Origin: Anaerolineales bacterium
GTDB taxonomy: Bacteria > Chloroflexota > Anaerolineae > Anaerolineales > RBG-16-64-43
Assembly: GCA_016928575.1 (NCBI GenBank)
Contig: JAFGKK010000067.1
Location: forward strand, 1 to 43,902
Direction: 5' to 3'
Length of the DNA: 43,902 bases
Both the position numbers and the translations under genes were made by a program. Positions 9,035 to 42,729 of this stretch are shown piece after piece. Every line of letters starts with the position of its first letter. Position 1 is the first letter of the stretch. The notes beneath the pieces were generated by a model. That model had not been told where the DNA came from. It searched no databases and saw only the letters and a program-made list of their open reading frames with translations.

Positions 9035-9335
9035 TGGCCGGTCGCTGGGCGAGGCGGGATTCGGCCGCATCGGCCGCAACGATTACTGCGCCGTTGAAGA
9101 AATCAAGGCGCCGTTTGTCTGCCGGGCGGGTTGGGCGGACAAGGCGGCGGCGCTTTTGCGCGGGCTGAATCCCTGCGAAGAACTGCCGTGCAAATCCGCG
9201 CCGGGGGATGTGAACGCGAAGTGCCGGATGGGTAGATTTTTTGCCGTACGCCATGGCAACCTGATGTTGGTCCCGGAAGCCGAGCCTTCCGCCATGCAGC
9301 TGCTATTGGATTTTCTAAAGGAAACGGTGGGGTAG
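9024..9335 (+). pseudogene. Orphan hypothetical ORF, probably a gene remnant
   Basis: Open frame of 103 codons with GC-rich third positions and a natural-looking composition: five cysteines and a hydrophobic C-terminal helix ending LLLDFLKETVG. The only available upstream start, GTG at 9024, lies inside the 3' arm of the preceding terminator hairpin, and no ribosome binding site is visible. It is therefore most likely the surviving 3' part of a decayed or 5'-truncated gene. I do not recognise the family. It could instead be chance coding on the antisense of nothing known. Confidence 0.35.
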
Positions 9336-9348
9336 GTATGGGCGTTGC

Positions 9349-9384
9349 AGACCTGTCAGGCCTGTGCCAAAACCTGACAGGTCT
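9349..9384. repeat. 12-bp perfect inverted repeat (ACCTGTCAGG type)
   Basis: AGACCTGTCAGG at 9349-9360 is the exact reverse complement of 9373-9384, with a 12-base spacer. It sits between the + strand remnant and the stop of the - strand flippase-like gene. It may terminate that transcript, but it lacks a clear T run. It could also be a dispersed palindromic repeat. Confidence 0.75.
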
Positions 9385-9394
9385 CGGACGGCGG

Positions 9395-10408
9395 TCAGTC
9401 CGCCTTCACTTCCGCCTGAATCTCTTTCACCGACAACCCCTCGCGCAGCCAAAAGAATCCCCCCAGCAGCGTGATCGGCAGCCACAGCGCGGCGTGCAGG
9501 ACGACGGTGTAGGCCGAGGCGACGGCATGCTCCACCCCGTAGGCCTCCAGCACGGCGATCCCGGCCGCCTCGAAGGTCCCGATGTATCCGGGCGCGGAGG
9601 GGATGATCGTCACCAAATTGGCGATCCCGTTCATCAGCATCAGCGCGAAGAAGGAAACGCCGAAGGCGAAGGCGTGCATCAGGAACCAATACTTGCCGGT
9701 CTCGAACAGCCAGATCAGGATCGAGGTGAACAGGACCATCAACACGTCGCGCGGCGAGCGCAGGCTGCTTAATCCCTCCAGCAGTCGGTCGACAATCCCC
9801 TGCGCCTTCGGGCGGAAGCGGGCGGGAACGAAATGGGCGATCAGCCGGCCGGACGCCCGGGCCGTGACGGCCGGAAACATCGCCGCCAGGATGAACGCGA
9901 CCAGCGCGCCGAAGAACAGCACCGTTCCGTAGAGGGCCAATTGCTCGATCGTCCCGGCCACCCCGGATCCTCCGGCGCCGAGCCGGGCCAGCTCGGGCAG
10001 GTTGACGAAGACGAACAGCATCATCACCACCGCGTCGAAGGTGCGCTCGATGAACACGATGGCGAAATTGGCGCTGAACGATACGCCCTCCTTCTGCCGG
10101 ATCAGGTACGGGCGGATGAGCAGTTCGCCGGCGCGCCACGGAAAAATGTTGTTGCCCATGTAGGCAATGCACACAATCGGAAACAGCGTTCGGGTGGGAA
10201 CCTTCTTGATCGGCCGCATCAGGTAATGGAGGCGCCAGGCGCGCACCGCTACGCCCATGAAATATACGGCGATGGCGGGGATCAACCAAAAGTATTGTGC
10301 GCCGCGGATGGAATCCCACAGTTCGGCCCAATTTTGTTGGCGGATGAGAAAATAATACAAGCAAACGATGCTGATCAGCAGGCCGACCCAGAATTGCCAG
10401 CGCTTCAT
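9395..10408 (-). CDS. Flippase-like integral membrane protein (LPG_synthase_TM family)
   Basis: 337-residue polytopic membrane protein with about eight hydrophobic segments. It resembles the transmembrane domain of lysylphosphatidylglycerol synthase/YbhN (UPF0104, AglD2/GLTP-type). Recognisable features are the first segment followed by Gln-Asn-W and an amphipathic loop, MGVAVRAWRLHYLM, the MGNNIFPWRAGELLRP-type loop in the second quarter, and IPSAPGYIGTFEAA near the end, which is the family's conserved P-G-x-x-G-x-E motif. Members are thought to translocate or synthesise lipid-linked compounds. It lacks the soluble aminoacyl-transferase domain. The start overlaps a promoter region shared with the divergent rdgB-like gene. 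Confidence 0.82.
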   Translation of the reverse strand: MKRWQFWVGLLISIVCLYYFLIRQQNWAELWDSIRGAQYFWLIPAIAVYFMGVAVRAWRLHYLMRPIKKVPTRTLFPIVCIAYMGNNIFPWRAGELLIRPYLIRQKEGVSFSANFAIVFIERTFDAVVMMLFVFVNLPELARLGAGGSGVAGTIEQLALYGTVLFFGALVAFILAAMFPAVTARASGRLIAHFVPARFRPKAQGIVDRLLEGLSSLRSPRDVLMVLFTSILIWLFETGKYWFLMHAFAFGVSFFALMLMNGIANLVTIIPSAPGYIGTFEAAGIAVLEAYGVEHAVASAYTVVLHAALWLPITLLGGFFWLREGLSVKEIQAEVKAD

Positions 10409-10422
10409 CGGGTCCTCTTCGC

Positions 10423-10447
10423 GGTAGAATGTGGTTTGAATTCTACC
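10423..10447. promoter_or_regulatory. Palindromic pair of face-to-face -10 boxes
   Basis: GGTAGAAT at 10423-10430 and its exact reverse complement at 10440-10447 each contain TAGAAT, a good -10 hexamer, one for each strand. They lie between two divergent genes. The -35 regions on both sides are weak. The same symmetry could be an operator. Assignment is by pattern only. Confidence 0.4.
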
Positions 10448-10467
10448 ATCGGAGGAGGATGGAGAAC

Positions 10468-11085
10468 ATGACCGGAAAGCCCCGCTTGCTGATCGCCACC
10501 GCCAATCCCGGCAAGCAGCGCGAATACCGCGCCCTGTTGCGCGAAGCGACGGCCGAGATCGTCTTTCCGAACGACCTTGGAATGACGCTTGAGGTGGACG
10601 AGGACGGCGCGACGTTCGGCGAGAACGCAGCCAAGAAGGCCGTCGCCTTCGCGCGCGCGGCCGGGCTTCCCGCCGCGGCGGACGATTCCGGACTGGAGGT
10701 GGATGCGCTCGGAGGCGCGCCGGGCGTGCTCTCCGCGCGCTGGGCGGGCGCGGAGGCCGACGACGCGCGCCGCCGGGCGCACCTGCTGGAGCAATTGAAA
10801 GGCGTCCCCGCGCCGCGCCGGGCCCGCTTCGTGTGCGTGATCGCGGTCGCCTCTCCCGCCGGCGCGGTGGAATTCGCCGAGGGCGAGTGCCACGGGGAGA
10901 TCGCCTGCGCCGAGCGCGGAACGAACGGCTTCGGCTACGATCCGGTGTTTCGGCCGGCGGGGCGCGCGGCGACGATGGCGGAGATCTCCGCCGAAGAAAA
11001 AAACGAAATCAGCCACCGGGCCCGCGCCGTGCGGGCGGCGATTCCGATCATTCGACGAATGCTGGAAAAAGGCCGGAAGAAGTAG
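10468..11085 (+). CDS. rdgB: XTP/dITP diphosphatase (RdgB/HAM1 family)
   Basis: Non-canonical purine NTP pyrophosphatase of 205 residues that removes ITP, dITP and XTP from the nucleotide pool. Family motifs are clear: the N-terminal TANPGKQREYR, DDSGLEVDAL with the catalytic acidic residues, GVLSARWAG, NGFGYDPVF, and the C-terminal EKNEISHRARA. GGAGGAGG at 10451-10458 is well spaced for the ATG at 10468 but abuts the ATG at 10459, so I take 10468. Length is normal for the family. It is monocistronic and convergent with the next gene. Confidence 0.95.
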   Translation: MTGKPRLLIATANPGKQREYRALLREATAEIVFPNDLGMTLEVDEDGATFGENAAKKAVAFARAAGLPAAADDSGLEVDALGGAPGVLSARWAGAEADDARRRAHLLEQLKGVPAPRRARFVCVIAVASPAGAVEFAEGECHGEIACAERGTNGFGYDPVFRPAGRAATMAEISAEEKNEISHRARAVRAAIPIIRRMLEKGRKK

Positions 11086-17433: not shown

Positions 17434-17534
17434 GCTCTTATCCAGAGAGGCGGAGGGACCGGCCCGACGAAGCCTCGGCAACCTGGCAGACGCCAAGGTG
17501 CCAATTCCGGCAGATGTTTCTGGAAGATGAGAGG
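17434..17534 (+). ncRNA. SAM-I (S-box) riboswitch
   Basis: Carries the conserved S-box core in order: CTTATCCAGAGAGG, GGAGGGAC, CCGACGAAGCC, CGGCAACC, AAGGTGCCAATTCC, and the closing GATGAGAG. The 5' CTCTTATC and 3' GATGAGAG form helix P1. It binds S-adenosylmethionine. A terminator follows 23 nt later, so ligand binding should stop transcription into metA. Confidence 0.97.
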
Positions 17535-37269: not shown

Positions 37270-37341
37270 GCGGGTGTAGCCAAGTGGTAAGGCACTTGCT
37301 TCCCAAGCAAGCATTCGCGGGTCCGAATCCCGTCACCCGCT
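37270..37341 (+). tRNA. tRNA-Gly (CCC anticodon)
   Basis: Acceptor GCGGGTG pairs with CACCCGC; the anticodon stem CTTGC/GCAAG encloses loop TTCCCAA with anticodon CCC; the T arm CGGGT..ACCCG-type contains the TTCGAA-like GGTCCGAATCC. CCA is not encoded. The gene is intact, since the integrated element regenerates the 3' end. Its 3' 60 bp serve as the attachment site of the element. Confidence 0.97.
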
Positions 37342-37345
37342 CAGG
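37286..37345 (+). repeat. attL, 60-bp direct repeat overlapping tRNA-Gly 3' end
   Basis: Identical to 41857-41916 over 60 bp, from GGTAAGGCAC in the D-arm to CGCTCAGG just after the acceptor stem. Identity stops immediately on both sides. Because integration duplicates the tRNA 3' portion, the left copy keeps a functional tRNA. Confidence 0.97.
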
Positions 37346-37398: not shown

Positions 37399-38310
37399 AT
37401 GCGAGAAGGGCACTTGCTTTCCCCGATTCGAACGTCGGTTAATCTCACCCTCAGCACTTCCCCGATACGGCAAGCCTTCGAGGATTTTCTTCTCTCGCGC
37501 GAGGCGATGCGATGCACTCCCGCAACCTTGGAACACTACCGCTATTCGGCCGGAGCGTTTATCACTTGGCTGGAGAGGCAGAACGTCAAGCACCCCGAAG
37601 AAGTTAAATCTTCTCACGTCCGGGAATGGTTGGCGGGAATGCCCAAGGCGAAGGATACAACCCTCCATGCGAAGGCGCGGGGCGTGAGAACGCTTCTCCG
37701 TTTTTGGCTGGCGGAAAAATACCTTACCGATGCCGTGACGTTTCAAATGCCAAGACTCGAAAAGAAACGGCTTCCCTCTCTCACGCCGGAGCAATTTCGT
37801 AAAGCATTAAAAGCCGTACCCACGGCGCGGGATAGGGCAATCCTTTTACTTCTCGTGGATAGCGGCATTCGACGGGCCGAAGCCCTGGCGCTGAATTGGG
37901 GAGACGTGAATTTCCAAACGGGGGCGGTGCTGATACGCAAGGGCAAGGGGAACAAGGCACGGATAACCGCAATCGGGGCGCGCACCCGGAGGGCGTTGAT
38001 AGCACTGCGGCGCGGTCGTAAGATTGCGGATACCGACCCTATATTTACGACCGATGAGGGAATGCGAATAACGGCCTTCGGCCTTCGGAGCGTGTTTGTA
38101 AGGTTGGGCAAGCGGGCAGGCTTTCCCATCAGCCCGCACATGCTCAGGCGGACCTGCGCAGTGCAATCCCTGACGGCTGGTATGGACGTTATCACCCTGC
38201 AGAAAATTCTCGGGCACGCAGATGTGAGCACGACGGCGATTTACTGTAATCTCTTGACCGATGACGTGCTATCGGAACACCGGGCGCACGGTGCGGATAG
38301 TTGGTTATAG
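37399..38310 (+). CDS. int: Tyrosine recombinase (integrase)
   Basis: 303-residue site-specific recombinase expected to integrate and excise the element at tRNA-Gly. The N-terminal core-binding domain (IRQAFEDFLLS, RYSAGAFITWLERQ) precedes the catalytic domain. The catalytic residues are all present: Arg158 in DSGIRRAEAL, Lys in RKGKGNKARI, His247 and Arg250 in HMLRRTCA, His273 in ILGHADVS, and nucleophile Tyr282 in AIYCNLL. It is read outward from the tRNA. GGAGGAG lies two bases before the ATG, an unusually tight spacing, and the region folds into a hairpin. No excisionase was recognised. Confidence 0.95.
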   Translation: MREGHLLSPIRTSVNLTLSTSPIRQAFEDFLLSREAMRCTPATLEHYRYSAGAFITWLERQNVKHPEEVKSSHVREWLAGMPKAKDTTLHAKARGVRTLLRFWLAEKYLTDAVTFQMPRLEKKRLPSLTPEQFRKALKAVPTARDRAILLLLVDSGIRRAEALALNWGDVNFQTGAVLIRKGKGNKARITAIGARTRRALIALRRGRKIADTDPIFTTDEGMRITAFGLRSVFVRLGKRAGFPISPHMLRRTCAVQSLTAGMDVITLQKILGHADVSTTAIYCNLLTDDVLSEHRAHGADSWL

Positions 38311-38994: not shown

Positions 38995-39040
38995 CTATGC
39001 CATTGATATTACTTTTTCTCAATTAATTACATAGAAAAAG

Positions 39041-39159
39041 AACTGCCCCGCGAGACGCGAATCTCCGGGGCGGCGGCCAAAGCGATGAGAGCGCTCCGAC
39101 GAAAGCAAGCATAGCATAAAAGAGAGCCGTTCGCATATCGCGGGCGGTTCTTTTCTTTT
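39041..39159 (+). ncRNA. Candidate structured RNA, copy 1
   Basis: About 119 nt with three parts: hairpin I, GCCCCG (39045-39050) with CGGGGC (39066-39071) around a 15-nt loop; hairpin II, AGCG/CGCT at 39081-39095; a purine-rich GAAAGCAAGCATAGCA strand; and an 11-bp terminal hairpin (39124-39150) followed by TTTTCTTTT, an intrinsic terminator. A TTGATA / TTACAT pair (39003-39008, 39027-39032) would start transcription at the first hairpin. The same order recurs at 41669-41782. The U tract abuts the GGAGG of the next gene, so it could be a leader or attenuator as well as an independent RNA. Confidence 0.55.
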
Positions 39160-39171
39160 GGAGGGTGAAAG

Positions 39172-39774
39172 ATGTATAAAAAAAATGACCCAATTATTCG
39201 GAAGTGTACACCCCGTGAATTTTGGATGTGGTTTCAGCTTGAGATAATTCAATCCCGAAAAAGATTCTCCTCCCCGGATGAGGGTATCTTCCTCCTAGAC
39301 ATTCCTTTACCATCCGGCGGGCTGGATGACGCAAGGGTGGAGATTACGACTAAGGGTAATTACTCTATGCCTCCAGGACTTACCCCGCCTCCGTCTTATA
39401 CAGGACCAGCGGCACAGGTAGAATATTTTCATAATGAGATATTACCGAAGATAGAAAAGGTAGTTATTAATTTTTCGTTCGTAAAAGTGGATGCTGAGCA
39501 ATTCGAGATTACTTCTCAAGTTAGCGGGCCGGAAACGATAGTCGATTATTACGAGAATGATTTATTGCGGAAGATAAAAGATAAGTGGCCGGAGCAGCCT
39601 GAGCATGCTCAATTGAAAATAAAAGGACAGTCAAGCCGGTTAAAACAAAAAATAGAAGAGCGAAAAAAACGCGTCCATCACTGGCGTGCTCAGGGGATGA
39701 CTATTAGCGAGATAGCGGAAAGGGAAGACATGAGCGAAGTACAGATAAAGCGTGATTTAGGACTGCGAAAATGA
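39172..39774 (+). CDS. HTH-domain protein of the element
   Basis: 200 residues. The N-terminal ~140 residues are of unknown family, starting KNDPIIRKCTPREFWMWF and containing a 'YFHNEILPKIEKVVI' and 'YYENDLLRKIKDKW' pair that look like an internal repeat. The C-terminus is a helix-turn-helix of the Hin/sigma-factor type (RVHHWRAQGMTISEIAERED, then MSEVQIKRDLGL). It probably binds DNA, perhaps as a regulator or accessory replication factor of the element. GGAGGG immediately follows the U tract of the candidate RNA. Frame chosen by the ribosome site. Confidence 0.78.
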   Translation: MYKKNDPIIRKCTPREFWMWFQLEIIQSRKRFSSPDEGIFLLDIPLPSGGLDDARVEITTKGNYSMPPGLTPPPSYTGPAAQVEYFHNEILPKIEKVVINFSFVKVDAEQFEITSQVSGPETIVDYYENDLLRKIKDKWPEQPEHAQLKIKGQSSRLKQKIEERKKRVHHWRAQGMTISEIAEREDMSEVQIKRDLGLRK

Positions 39775-39806
39775 CCCCTTAAATGACCTTTTATTTGACC
39801 CCCTCG

Positions 39807-39847
39807 CCGGGTTACTGTGATTATGCAGTAACCCGGTTTCTTTTTCT
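39807..39847 (+). terminator. Intrinsic terminator before the small RHH-like gene
   Basis: CCGGGTTACTG (39807-39817) pairs perfectly with CAGTAACCCGG (39826-39836), followed by TTTCTTTTTCT. GGAGG of the next gene begins directly after the U tract, so it could act as an attenuator for that gene as well as a terminator for the HTH gene. Confidence 0.88.
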
Positions 39848-39858
39848 GGAGGTCAACC

Positions 39859-40053
39859 ATGCCCAAGGTAGAAATTATCTTAAGTGAATTGGAACATTCC
39901 GCCCTTGAGCGTTTGTCTCGAAGTGAAGGCAGGACGACAAAGAAGCAAGCGGCGGCGGTTATTCGAGAACGATTGAAACGGCGCGGTCTTCTCCCCAAGT
40001 CAAATCCAACCCCCCAACCATCCATGACGCAACCGATGAGCAACCAAGCTTAA
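39859..40053 (+). CDS. Small ribbon-helix-helix-like DNA-binding protein
   Basis: 64-residue protein. A short strand (KVEIILSELEH) is followed by two helices (SALERLSRSEG and KKQAAAVIRERLKRRG), the pattern of CopG/Arc-type ribbon-helix-helix regulators. A Pro/Gln-rich tail follows. GGAGG lies six bases before the ATG, directly after a terminator-like hairpin. It may control copy number or expression of the element. The family match is by pattern only. Confidence 0.65.
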   Translation: MPKVEIILSELEHSALERLSRSEGRTTKKQAAAVIRERLKRRGLLPKSNPTPQPSMTQPMSNQA

Positions 40054-40102
40054 AAAACCACCGTCCGGTGACAGGCCGGGCGGCATAGGAAGGACACTTA
40101 CG

Positions 40103-40480
40103 ATGCTTACTCAGTATAGCACTACTACCAAGGAGCGAAAGCCAATCCCCATCCATGGAAAACCCCTCTTCGTGGGAAGCCGCTGTATCGGAGAGATTGT
40201 CGGAAAAACTCTCCGAAAGCAAATTCAACCCTCAGGATTCCTACGGATACCACCGGCCATAGCGTGGGCGGTGGAGGCAATACGCGCAGCGCAGGCGGCC
40301 GGGGTGGAAAGGCTGGAAGTGATTTGCGGGGGGGATATCTATCGCCTAACGATGGAAGAATTTCTTCGTCATGCGTTCCCCGTCCATCGGGGCGGCTGGG
40401 AACCACAGCTTGCTGCAGCCTTACACGTTTGGCACATCCAACGGCAGGGCGAACCGGCGCAATTGGCGCTGCCGATATAA
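40103..40480 (+). CDS. Hypothetical protein of the element
   Basis: 125 residues, no family recognised. It has a basic N-terminus, a central helix (AVEAIRAAQAAGVERLEVICGGD) and an amphipathic C-terminus. AGGAAGGA precedes the ATG. It is followed four bases later by the winged-helix gene, so the two are probably translated together. Confidence 0.7.
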   Translation: MLTQYSTTTKERKPIPIHGKPLFVGSRCIGEIVGKTLRKQIQPSGFLRIPPAIAWAVEAIRAAQAAGVERLEVICGGDIYRLTMEEFLRHAFPVHRGGWEPQLAAALHVWHIQRQGEPAQLALPI

Positions 40481-40484
40481 GCCG

Positions 40485-41246
40485 ATGCGGAAAGATGATT
40501 ATCTCCCCCACGAAATCGCAAAGGCCGTAACCCAGGACGGGCGTGAAGTCTGGCAACCCCGGTTTATCAAGTTGGATACGGCTTTCCGGCGCGAGACGCT
40601 GGCGAAGCTGAAGGGCTGTAAGCTCTCGGTTTACTTTGACCTGGCGGAGCACATGAACCGCGAGGGCGAATGCTGGCCTTCGATGGAAACCTTGGCTAAG
40701 GAAACCGATTATTCACGGAGGCAGGTAATCCGCGCGATAAAGGAATTGAAAGCGATGGGAATAATCTCCGTGGAACGCGGTGGAGCGGCGCACGGGCGGA
40801 AGCCGGTAAACCGGTACCGCGTCAATTCCTACGTCCGGTATTGTGATGAGGGCTGGCGCGAGGAAGACGCCCCGGAGTTATCCATAGGTGCGGAGCATGT
40901 CGGAAATGTCACTATGGATGGTGACATTTCGAGCATAAAAAGCATGTCGGAAATGTCACTAGAAGAAGACTTTGTATTTAAGAAGACTTTATCTGAAGAA
41001 GACAGCCCGCCGAAAATCACGGAAGGGGCTGCGCTGCGCGGCGCAAAAAAGCAACCCCGCGCCGCCCGCGCCACCTCTCCCCGGTCGGATGACGAAGTAT
41101 CGCTTGCTATCAATGAAACGGAAGAAGAAATCGTCAAACGGCGCCCGCTTACGCCTTCCGAATTGGGGCGTTATAAAGCACGGGGTGTTTGGGGACCGCT
41201 GGCGCGGTTAGAAGCGGAACATGGTTCCCAGAATATCGGAGGTTGA
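40485..41246 (+). CDS. Winged-helix (HTH_36-type) replication-like protein
   Basis: 253-residue protein. The segment from about residue 50 to 110 (VYFDLAEHMNREGECWPSM, ETLAKETDYSRRQVIRAIKEL, KAMGIISVERG) is the winged-helix type found in phage and plasmid replication initiators (HTH_36). The rest is low-complexity, acidic and Ser-rich, with a repeated MSEMSLEED-like stretch, then a basic tail. No helicase or primase motif. The start at 40485 has a poor ribosome site and depends on coupling to the preceding gene. It may bind the element's origin. Confidence 0.78.
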   Translation: MRKDDYLPHEIAKAVTQDGREVWQPRFIKLDTAFRRETLAKLKGCKLSVYFDLAEHMNREGECWPSMETLAKETDYSRRQVIRAIKELKAMGIISVERGGAAHGRKPVNRYRVNSYVRYCDEGWREEDAPELSIGAEHVGNVTMDGDISSIKSMSEMSLEEDFVFKKTLSEEDSPPKITEGAALRGAKKQPRAARATSPRSDDEVSLAINETEEEIVKRRPLTPSELGRYKARGVWGPLARLEAEHGSQNIGG

Positions 41247-41601
41247 AAATGAGCTGGCGTTTCAAATCAAGGCGGCTGGTTTACCCGTTCCGGCGCGGCA
41301 GGTGCAGATTATCCCGGCGCGGCGTTTCCGGTGGGACTTCGCTTGGCCTTCCGCTCACCTGGCGGCGGAGGTGCAAGGCGGCCTCTACTCCGGCGGGGCC
41401 CACGTCCGGGCGTGGGGAGTGACCCGGGACGCGGAGAAGAACAACCTGGCGGTCCTGGCCGGCTGGCGTGTGCTGTACTTCACCAGCGAGGTTGTCAGGT
41501 CCGGACGGGCGCTCTCCATCCTCGAAGACGCGTTGAAAACCCCTCCAGGAAGCAACAGGAAGCCCCAGGACAGGCGGGAAGGCGGGGTGGATACTTCGTG
41601 A
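41221..41601 (+). CDS. Phage-type PD-(D/E)XK nuclease-like protein
   Basis: 126-residue protein resembling small phage-encoded endonuclease-like proteins. FRWDFAWPSAHLAAEVQGG provides the D-x(n)-E-x-Q catalytic core of a PD-(D/E)XK/VSR-like fold, and SGGAHVRAWGVTRDAEKNN followed by LAGWRVLYFTSEVV matches the following conserved helix and strand. It overlaps the winged-helix gene by 26 bp. A DNA-end or Holliday-junction processing role is plausible. The last ~20 residues are Arg/Lys-rich. Confidence 0.8.
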   Translation: MVPRISEVENELAFQIKAAGLPVPARQVQIIPARRFRWDFAWPSAHLAAEVQGGLYSGGAHVRAWGVTRDAEKNNLAVLAGWRVLYFTSEVVRSGRALSILEDALKTPPGSNRKPQDRREGGVDTS

Positions 41602-41668
41602 ACGGCATCACAAGTCAAGCTTGATGAACAATGGGTTAACAATGCGGAAATAGTGATAAGATAAATAC

Positions 41669-41782
41669 GACCCGAACGAGCAAACGTCCGGGCCGTAAGA
41701 GCAAGCCGGGCAAGCGGCCTGCAAGGAAAAGTATAGCACCCGAAGCCGCTTCCGGTCGATACGTCGGAGGCGGTTTTTTCTT
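41669..41782 (+). ncRNA. Candidate structured RNA, copy 2
   Basis: Same order as the RNA at 39041-39159: hairpin I CCCG (41671-41674) with CGGG (41689-41692) around a 14-nt loop sharing CGAG..C..AA..TC with copy 1; hairpin II GCCG/CGGC (41705-41718); single-stranded GGAAAAGTATAGCAC; and an 11-bp terminal hairpin (41743-41776) with a T6 run, sharing AGCCG at its 5' side. An extended -10 TGATAAGAT (41654-41662) predicts a start at 41669. No gene follows, so this copy acts in trans or as a terminator before the attachment site. Confidence 0.55.
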
Positions 41783-41856: not shown

Positions 41857-41916
41857 GGTAAGGCACTTGCTTCCCAAGCAAGCATTCGCGGGTCCGAATC
41901 CCGTCACCCGCTCAGG
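41857..41916 (+). repeat. attR, 60-bp direct repeat
   Basis: Exact copy of 37286-37345. It lacks the tRNA 5' half (acceptor strand and D arm), so it is not a functional tRNA. Confidence 0.97.
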
Positions 41917-41923
41917 GTCACAC

Positions 41924-41956
41924 AGACTGGATAAAAGCATCCAGTCTTTTCTTTTC
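41924..41956 (+). terminator. Displaced native tRNA-Gly terminator
   Basis: AGACTGGAT pairs perfectly with ATCCAGTCT around AAAAGC, followed by TTTCTTTT. It lies eight bases past attR, the place where the tRNA terminator would have been before integration. The element has moved it 4.6 kb away from the tRNA. Confidence 0.88.
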
Positions 41957-42092
41957 ATGGGTAGTAAACGGAAATACCCGTCCCGCAATCCGCAATTTCC
42001 TTGGAAGGATATAAACCAAAAAGGGGTCTGCTCAACCTATTCAACATTGAGAAGAAATCCTGCACTTTTCCATCCTCGCCCCTATCCCCTGG

Positions 42093-42252: not shown

Positions 42253-42342
42253 CACCCGCTCGGGAATACACGGATTGGATAAACACATCCAGTCTTTTCT
42301 TTTCATGAGTAGTAAACGGAAACACCCGCGCCGCAATCCGCA
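42253..42342 (+). repeat. Diverged copy of tRNA-end/terminator segment
   Basis: Matches 41905-41994 without gaps, 78 of 90 bases by hand count, from CACCCGCTC through the terminator hairpin to CCGCAATCCGCA. The hairpin is preserved (ATTGGAT/ATCCAGT at 42274-42293 plus T run). A further, much weaker copy of the border may begin near 42434 (CCGCTCAGG). Confidence 0.88.
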
Positions 42343-42729
42343 CTCTCCTGCGCCAAGGATGAAGGCATACTGAGGATATTCACGGACAGATTAAGAATTC
42401 GGTCGTAATGTGCGTATTTGGACTTCGGGATCAACCGCTCAGGTTGAATCCGAGTAGAATGACGCGTCCGATCCGATTGTTTTATAAGAAGGGGTATGAA
42501 GATCCCCATCCCGCAAGTCAACCTTTTCAAAGTATGTTTTCAACGGAACGCCGTTGGGAAGAGCAAAAAGGCGTGGTGATTATTTACGGATAAGCCTCTC
42601 CGCAAGAAAAAATTCCTCGGCGACGGCCCCCCCTGAAATTTTTATTTTTACCGCCGCTGGGCGGACGCATGCCGCTGAGATTTTGAATTGCCGCCCTGCC
42701 ATCCTGTGCGCATGGCGTCGTACCGGGGT

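Follow-up and report, generated by a model that had tools for sequence, protein, structure and literature searches.

A large family of two-hairpin RNAs in Chloroflexota, predicted to form cis-antisense attenuators in small tRNA-integrated elements and before other operons

What do two similar, foldable segments do inside one small integrative element of an Anaerolineales bacterium? The segments lie at 39041-39159 (copy A) and 41669-41782 (copy B) of contig JAFGKK010000067.1 (assembly GCA_016928575.1), of which we analysed a stretch of 43,902 nucleotides (the window). An earlier note, made from the letters of this DNA alone, had described them as two copies of a structured RNA, and their similarity is real. 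The local alignment of the two segments scored 24.5, compared with 12.6 ± 2.5 for 1000 dinucleotide shuffles, none of which reached 24.5. When both strands of the window were scanned with copy A, setting copy A itself aside, copy B was the top match. A covariance model built from copy A alone, its terminator included (R1), recovered copy B in a search of the window with 29.4 bits and an E-value of 1.9e-5 (the E-values of these model searches are rough, as the calibration was shortened). Both segments fold into the hairpins I, II and III that had been claimed. The CCCG/CGGG stem of hairpin I was also borne out, but its presumed loop of 14-15 nt actually consists of an upper stem of 3-4 bp, a 6-nt loop and a single bulged base, which is conserved. 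The answer that we favour, with a probability of roughly 75%, is that both copies work as compact cis-antisense attenuators, in which an antisense RNA of about 70 nt would control transcription termination in the leader of the opposite strand, similar to the copy control of plasmids pT181 and pIP501.

The two copies belong to a family. Searches with R1 yielded seven strong matches near related integrases, and about 20 of the 298 genomes of the class that were searched had matches with E-values below 1e-4. Four R1 matches to plain terminators or a tRNA region (L081, L083, L087 and L088) were discarded. The terminator was omitted from a second model, R2, which represents the two-hairpin core. 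In the class of the host (Anaerolineae-type Chloroflexota), R2 matched 100 of 396 genomes at E ≤ 0.01, and in a sample of the phylum it matched 25 of 350; most of the sampled genomes are metagenome-assembled, and copies that are related do not count as independent. The named relatives that carry the family are Chloroflexi/Anaerolineae metagenome genomes. Among viral contigs with integrases (668 kb), R2 found two matches only, which supports its specificity.

Covariation in the hairpins of this family is overwhelming. The two-hairpin structure of 23 aligned cores contained 82 double-change cells versus 23.0 ± 3.8 in shuffled alignments, and that of 94 copies contained 408 versus 95 ± 11. In the latter set, 91.2% of the cells were paired, compared with 36-44% when the structure was slid along the alignment. 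The earlier note had expected pairing rather than sequence to be conserved, and had named a lack of homologues with covarying stems as an outcome that would speak against its RNA. The stems covary across more than 100 homologues, and neither stems nor loops are conserved in sequence between copies. The note's inability to name a family was also upheld. A comparison with Rfam, including its ctRNA and c4 families, returned, above the gathering threshold, just tRNA and SAM matches in the window and just tRNA matches in 20 homologous loci, while permissive thresholds returned chance matches only. The family was not described in the literature found by our paper searches. It is a large RNA family that is absent from Rfam.

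We asked which strand encodes the folded RNA. Among paired columns read on the plus strand, A·C cells outnumbered G·U cells by 107 to 14, which is the reverse of the bias expected from a model trained on that strand. In hairpin II the counts were 59 A·C versus 4 G·U cells, and grouping the copies at 70% identity (62 clusters) left 37 versus 3, where composition predicts a ratio of about 1.4 to 1. Since an A·C pair on the plus strand is a G·U pair on the minus strand, this places the fold of hairpin II in a minus-strand RNA. Hairpin I contained few of either (19 A·C, 10 G·U), as expected when folding is needed in the RNAs of both strands.

The minus strand also carries a candidate promoter. The linker after hairpin II reads on this strand as an extended -10 box (TGnTATAAT-like), with the TG present in 70 of 93 copies. 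A -35 box lies inside the loop of hairpin III, in a stretch outside the R2 model, and matches at least four of six positions in 57 of 93 copies versus 13.6 in shuffled sequences, with a spacer mode of 17. What had been taken for a purine-rich RNA strand with GAAAAG and ATAGCA motifs is thus better read as the -10 region of this promoter. Two candidate explanations were dropped, namely that the ATAGCA strand is a conserved RNA motif and that hairpins II and III form a repeated protein site; the -35/-10 spacing and the A·C excess rule out both. Downstream of the promoter, the minus strand presents hairpin II and then hairpin I; the U tract that follows is visible on the plus strand as an A-rich run before hairpin I. 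YUNR, the U-turn motif found in the loops by which antisense RNAs recognise their targets (PMC7430163), occurs in the minus-strand loop of hairpin I in 47 of 94 copies versus 19.8 ± 3.7, and is missing from about half of the copies. The folded RNA is predicted to be encoded on the minus strand, with a length of about 70 nt and two hairpins, of which hairpin I is its terminator. The structured RNA proposed earlier is therefore retained, but not the plus strand or the length of about 115 nt assigned to it.

In copy A, the predicted antisense RNA spans 39034-39101 (minus strand, about 68 nt), with its ends placed from the promoter and the U tract. Hairpin II (39076-39100, minus) would be its 5' hairpin, as indicated by covariation, the A·C/G·U asymmetry and nascent folds, and on the plus strand it would supply the presumed antiterminator strand. 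Hairpin I (39045-39071, minus), indicated by its fold, covariation and the U tract on the minus strand, would be the antisense terminator; read on the plus strand, it would open the sense leader as its 5' hairpin. The candidate antisense promoter consists of a TG-extended -10 box, TATGCT (TGC-TATGCT), at 39108-39113 and a weak -35 candidate, ATGCGA, at 39131-39136 (minus, spacer 17). The intrinsic terminator of the sense leader and its U tract occupy 39122-39159 (plus) and are followed by the GGAGG Shine-Dalgarno sequence of ORF3. Copy B has the same parts: a candidate sense promoter, TTAACA-15-TAAGAT, at 41636-41662 (plus); hairpins I and II, identified from their folds, at 41667-41696 and 41701-41722 (minus); a predicted antisense RNA of about 68 nt at 41656-41723 (minus), with inferred ends; a TG-extended antisense -10 box, TATACT (TGC-TATACT), at 41730-41735 with a -35 box, TCGACC, at 41754-41759 (minus, spacer 18); and a sense terminator with U tract, identified from its fold, at 41742-41782 (plus).

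The plus strand has the features of a regulated leader. A -10 box upstream of hairpin I matches at least five of six positions in 65 of 90 copies, where 10 are expected. The note had placed such a box about seven bases before hairpin I; in copy A, however, the plus-strand box is weak, and its distance from the hairpin varies between 8 and 37 nt in the family. After the linker, a plus-strand intrinsic terminator was found in 75 of 93 copies, both window copies included, versus 16 in shuffled sequences. Hairpin III and its U tract, once read as part of the RNA, are a hairpin as proposed, but their probable role is to terminate this opposite, sense leader. Leaders pair with the 5' arm of their own terminator at -20.7 kcal/mol, compared with -18.3 ± 0.29 kcal/mol for swapped arms. 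In nascent leader folds, at least seven arm bases were paired with the leader in 63 of 75 copies versus 37 with swapped arms, and hairpin II refolds with the terminator arm in both window copies. A Shine-Dalgarno-like motif precedes 56 of 72 first open reading frames (ORFs), a count for which the choice of ORF favoured such motifs, and most of these ORFs start within 100 nt. On the strength of these statistics we consider the RNA family, its strand, both promoters, both terminators, the complementarity of leader and terminator, and the positions of the copies to be established at the sequence level. At L050 (7952), L152 (5743-5819), L263 (431-508) and L265 (2815-2884), the last two being phage contigs, both hairpins and the antisense promoter occur without a sense terminator, and a Shine-Dalgarno sequence follows directly. 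This suggests that the output differs in some lineages.

Transcription of these parts, their pairing in the cell, and the sign and purpose of the control we infer as follows. The sense transcript would start upstream, pass through hairpin I, hairpin II and the linker, and reach the intrinsic terminator before the gene. By default, the strands of hairpin II would pair with the 5' arm of the terminator, forming an antiterminator, and transcription would go on. The minus-strand promoter, with its -10 box in the linker and its -35 box in the terminator loop, would yield an RNA of about 70 nt that folds into the counterpart of hairpin II and then that of hairpin I, its own terminator. The U-turn loop of this antisense RNA presumably kisses its counterpart loop in the nascent leader and sequesters hairpins I and II, upon which the terminator would form and the gene would be turned off. 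This follows the logic of pT181, where the antiterminator resides in the sensing hairpin and antisense binding frees the terminator (PMC4878617), and the matching logic of pIP501 (PMC4981023). Of the roles that the note had considered, regulator of the element is probably right; a trans-acting role is needless for the data, and an RNA that interacts with a helper found no support.

Several observations weigh against an attenuator of this kind. Copy A is among the weaker cassettes of the family, with a weak -35 box, a weak plus-strand promoter and a modest antiterminator duplex. In the integrated state, several B copies have no gene ahead of them. The minus-strand -10 statistic, taken alone, is biased, since the linker was part of the sequences from which R1 and R2 were built. 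The first genes behind the cassette are highly diverse and share no single regulated function. Finally, 18 of 93 copies have no recognisable plus-strand terminator, the same-order loci L050 and L152 among them, so that control may be translational at such loci.

Translational or stability control could indeed be the output of the sense and antisense RNAs throughout, as with CopA/CopT of plasmid R1 and the Inc RNA of IncI plasmids. The Shine-Dalgarno sequence directly after the cassettes of L050 and L152 fits this explanation, as does the same arrangement in two phage contigs, and in L050 the hairpin II loop AACTGCCC matches GGGCAGTT ahead of the Shine-Dalgarno sequence. We nevertheless think it unlikely for the family, considering that the 75 copies with an intrinsic terminator, including those of the window, show complementarity between this terminator and their own leader. 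Alternatively, the minus-strand RNA may be a small RNA that acts in trans, with the plus-strand promoter and terminator belonging to the neighbouring gene and insulating it. Such an RNA would have its own promoter and terminator, as found here, and could occur as many copies per phylum with a common hairpin plan and loop preference, several B copies having no gene directly ahead. A shared trans target would, however, need conserved stem or loop sequences, which the copies lack, and neither the excess of plus-strand promoters reading into the unit (65 of 90 versus 10) nor the match of each leader to its own terminator arm would be explained. This makes a trans-acting RNA distinctly improbable.

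The remaining explanations do without an antisense RNA. Palindromes that act as DNA, in a replication origin or as recombination sites, would account for the ability of both strands to fold, the rarity of G·U in hairpin I and the location of copies near replication and integration genes. The strand asymmetry of hairpin II, the promoters conserved at a fixed distance and the U tracts are RNA features, however, and many copies precede defence genes, so we judge this very improbable. A metabolite riboswitch, or another leader RNA of the plus strand, is least probable of all. It would agree with the plus-strand fold and terminator directly ahead of a Shine-Dalgarno sequence, but is contradicted by the strand test, in which the G·U/A·C asymmetry places the fold of hairpin II on the minus strand; the loops are variable, the first genes have no common metabolism and Rfam gave no match.

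With the cis-antisense attenuator as our preferred explanation, we turn to the element that carries the two copies. As the note had supposed, both lie inside one small integrative element, which is integrated at a tRNA gene. A tRNA-Gly(CCC) gene at 37270-37342 is followed by a tyrosine integrase (37399-38310, plus; PF00589, E 2.6e-31), and an exact 60-bp repeat of the 3' part of the tRNA marks the far end of the element, which measures about 4.6 kb. The repeats, attL (37286-37345, plus), assigned from the tRNA call and the direct repeat, and attR (41857-41916, plus), enclose the integrase, ORF2, copy A, ORF3, ORF4, ORF5, an initiator-like gene, a phrog_503 gene and copy B, in this order. ORF3 (39172-39774, plus; 200 aa), the first gene after copy A, has a weak C-terminal match to sigma region 4. 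ORF4 (39859-40053, plus; phrog_5333), which has relatives in other elements, and ORF5 (40103-40480, plus), which is common to related elements, belong to the replication operon. The fourth gene of this operon, which is headed by copy A, encodes a replication initiation-like protein (40485-41246, plus; HTH_36 and a PHROG replication initiation match). The phrog_503 protein (41221-41601, plus) is assigned from a PHROG match and has no assigned function. Protein searches found no relatives of ORF3 or of the replication protein. Loci retrieved via the ORF at 41221 were rejected, as they are not related elements. In some satellites the first gene after copy A ends in a sigma-70 region 4-like domain (L102, 8547-9431 minus; PF08281, E 5.4e-9), a match that is very weak in ORF3; it is perhaps an element-specific transcription factor. 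Just beyond attR, a 97-bp direct repeat (41905-42001 and 42253-42349, 86% identical) may be a relic of earlier insertions at the same tRNA. Elsewhere in the window, a SAM riboswitch lies at 17435-17533 (RF00162, 92.5 bits).

Eight elements, including that of the window, follow one plan, with tRNA repeats of 60-99 bp, a length of 4.3-8.2 kb and the integrase first. The core of copy B ends 117-200 nt ahead of the second repeat in all eight, and copy A lies 1.1-1.7 kb from the first repeat in seven. Copies form position-specific subfamilies, the nearest neighbour being at the same position in 13 of 15 cases. Operons headed by copy A encode a primase-polymerase, AAA_25/DnaB-like proteins, CHC2 primase or HTH_36 initiators; in the window element, copy A would hold back expression of the replication operon. 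After excision and circularisation, copy B would sit a few hundred nucleotides upstream of the integrase gene (231 nt in the window) and point the same way. With no gene ahead of it when integrated, it would act on the integrase in this circle. These elements look like phage satellites. One relative, L116 (G421:C387), is an 8.2-kb tRNA-integrated element in which, at 9137-10726 (minus), a major capsid gene is either fused to a prohead protease or overlaps it, and in this it resembles phage satellites that form capsids; among the relatives only this one has a capsid and protease gene, and the window element has none. In L118 (G602:C213, 2933-11316), the tRNA-Gly and integrase of a second complete element have a B-type copy upstream of them, like two elements in tandem at one tRNA. 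This second element also encodes a SacI-like restriction endonuclease.

Outside such elements, the cassette precedes genes of very different kinds. By our own count, defence-type domains occur in about 16 of 60 first genes, which is an association and not an enrichment. Domain assignments and PADLOC gave HsdM, C5 methylase, MmeI, ResIII, an SNF2 helicase with NOV_C, DUF499, DUF2806, BrxA, AbiTii, TIR, CHAT-TPR, AlbA_2 and others. Cassettes immediately before CHAT-TPR, SNF2/NOV_C helicase, HsdM, BrxA and TIR genes occur, for example, at L105, L108, L155, L189 and L194. As a tentative idea, possible rather than probable, one portable antisense attenuator might serve as a shared phage-response switch of Chloroflexota. 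Infection or takeover by a helper would lower the level of a short-lived antisense RNA, upon which satellites would begin to replicate and to express their integrase; through the same cassette, defence operons (BREX, restriction-modification, TIR, CHAT and others) would be freed from attenuation.

The family fills a place where Rfam is empty; about a quarter of the genomes sampled from one class carry it, and it also occurs in other parts of the phylum. If our interpretation is right, antisense attenuation, known from plasmids of Firmicutes, also operates in satellite-like elements of the chromosome and at defence operons, two settings where researchers are still asking how toxic or costly genes are kept off. 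With both strands and their promoters, loops and terminators defined, the proposed regulation lends itself to direct tests.

The closest known systems are RNAI/RNAII of pT181 and RNAIII of pIP501/Inc18, which share with the cassette a cis-antisense RNA directed against an mRNA leader, a terminator before the gene, an antiterminator strand in the hairpin bound by the antisense RNA, an interior bulge, a U-turn loop and an association with replication genes (PMC4878617, PMC4981023). The cassette has an antisense promoter, a structured antisense RNA with a terminator, a sense-leader terminator, antiterminator complementarity and a YUNR loop, as systems of this type do. It differs from them in having no sequence or Rfam relationship and in residing in chromosomal elements of Chloroflexota instead of Firmicute plasmids. 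Its antisense RNA is shorter, with a -35 box within the loop of the leader terminator, and it occurs as two copies per element, one of them near attP, and also before defence genes. In the satellite phage P4, the CI RNA is a small RNA that causes early termination of transcription of the satellite's replication operon and comes from the strand that also encodes the leader it targets. The cassette resembles it in the predicted early end of replication-operon transcription, but its folded RNA is antisense, lies on the opposite strand and has its own promoter. CopA of plasmid R1 and c4 of phages P1 and P7 (RF01695) are small antisense RNAs with two hairpins; the 3' hairpin of CopA is both terminator and recognition loop, and c4 acts in a phage context. 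The cassette shares this two-hairpin plan, although RF01695 had no match in the window or the 20 homologous loci, and its predicted output is intrinsic termination in the sense leader, not control of translation. Phage-inducible chromosomal islands (PICIs), including those that form capsids, resemble the elements described here, which measure 4-8 kb, are integrated site-specifically at tRNA genes and carry an integrase and a primase/helicase or other replication module; L116 has a capsid gene as well. The PICIs known so far rely on protein repressors, and the present elements reside in Chloroflexota.

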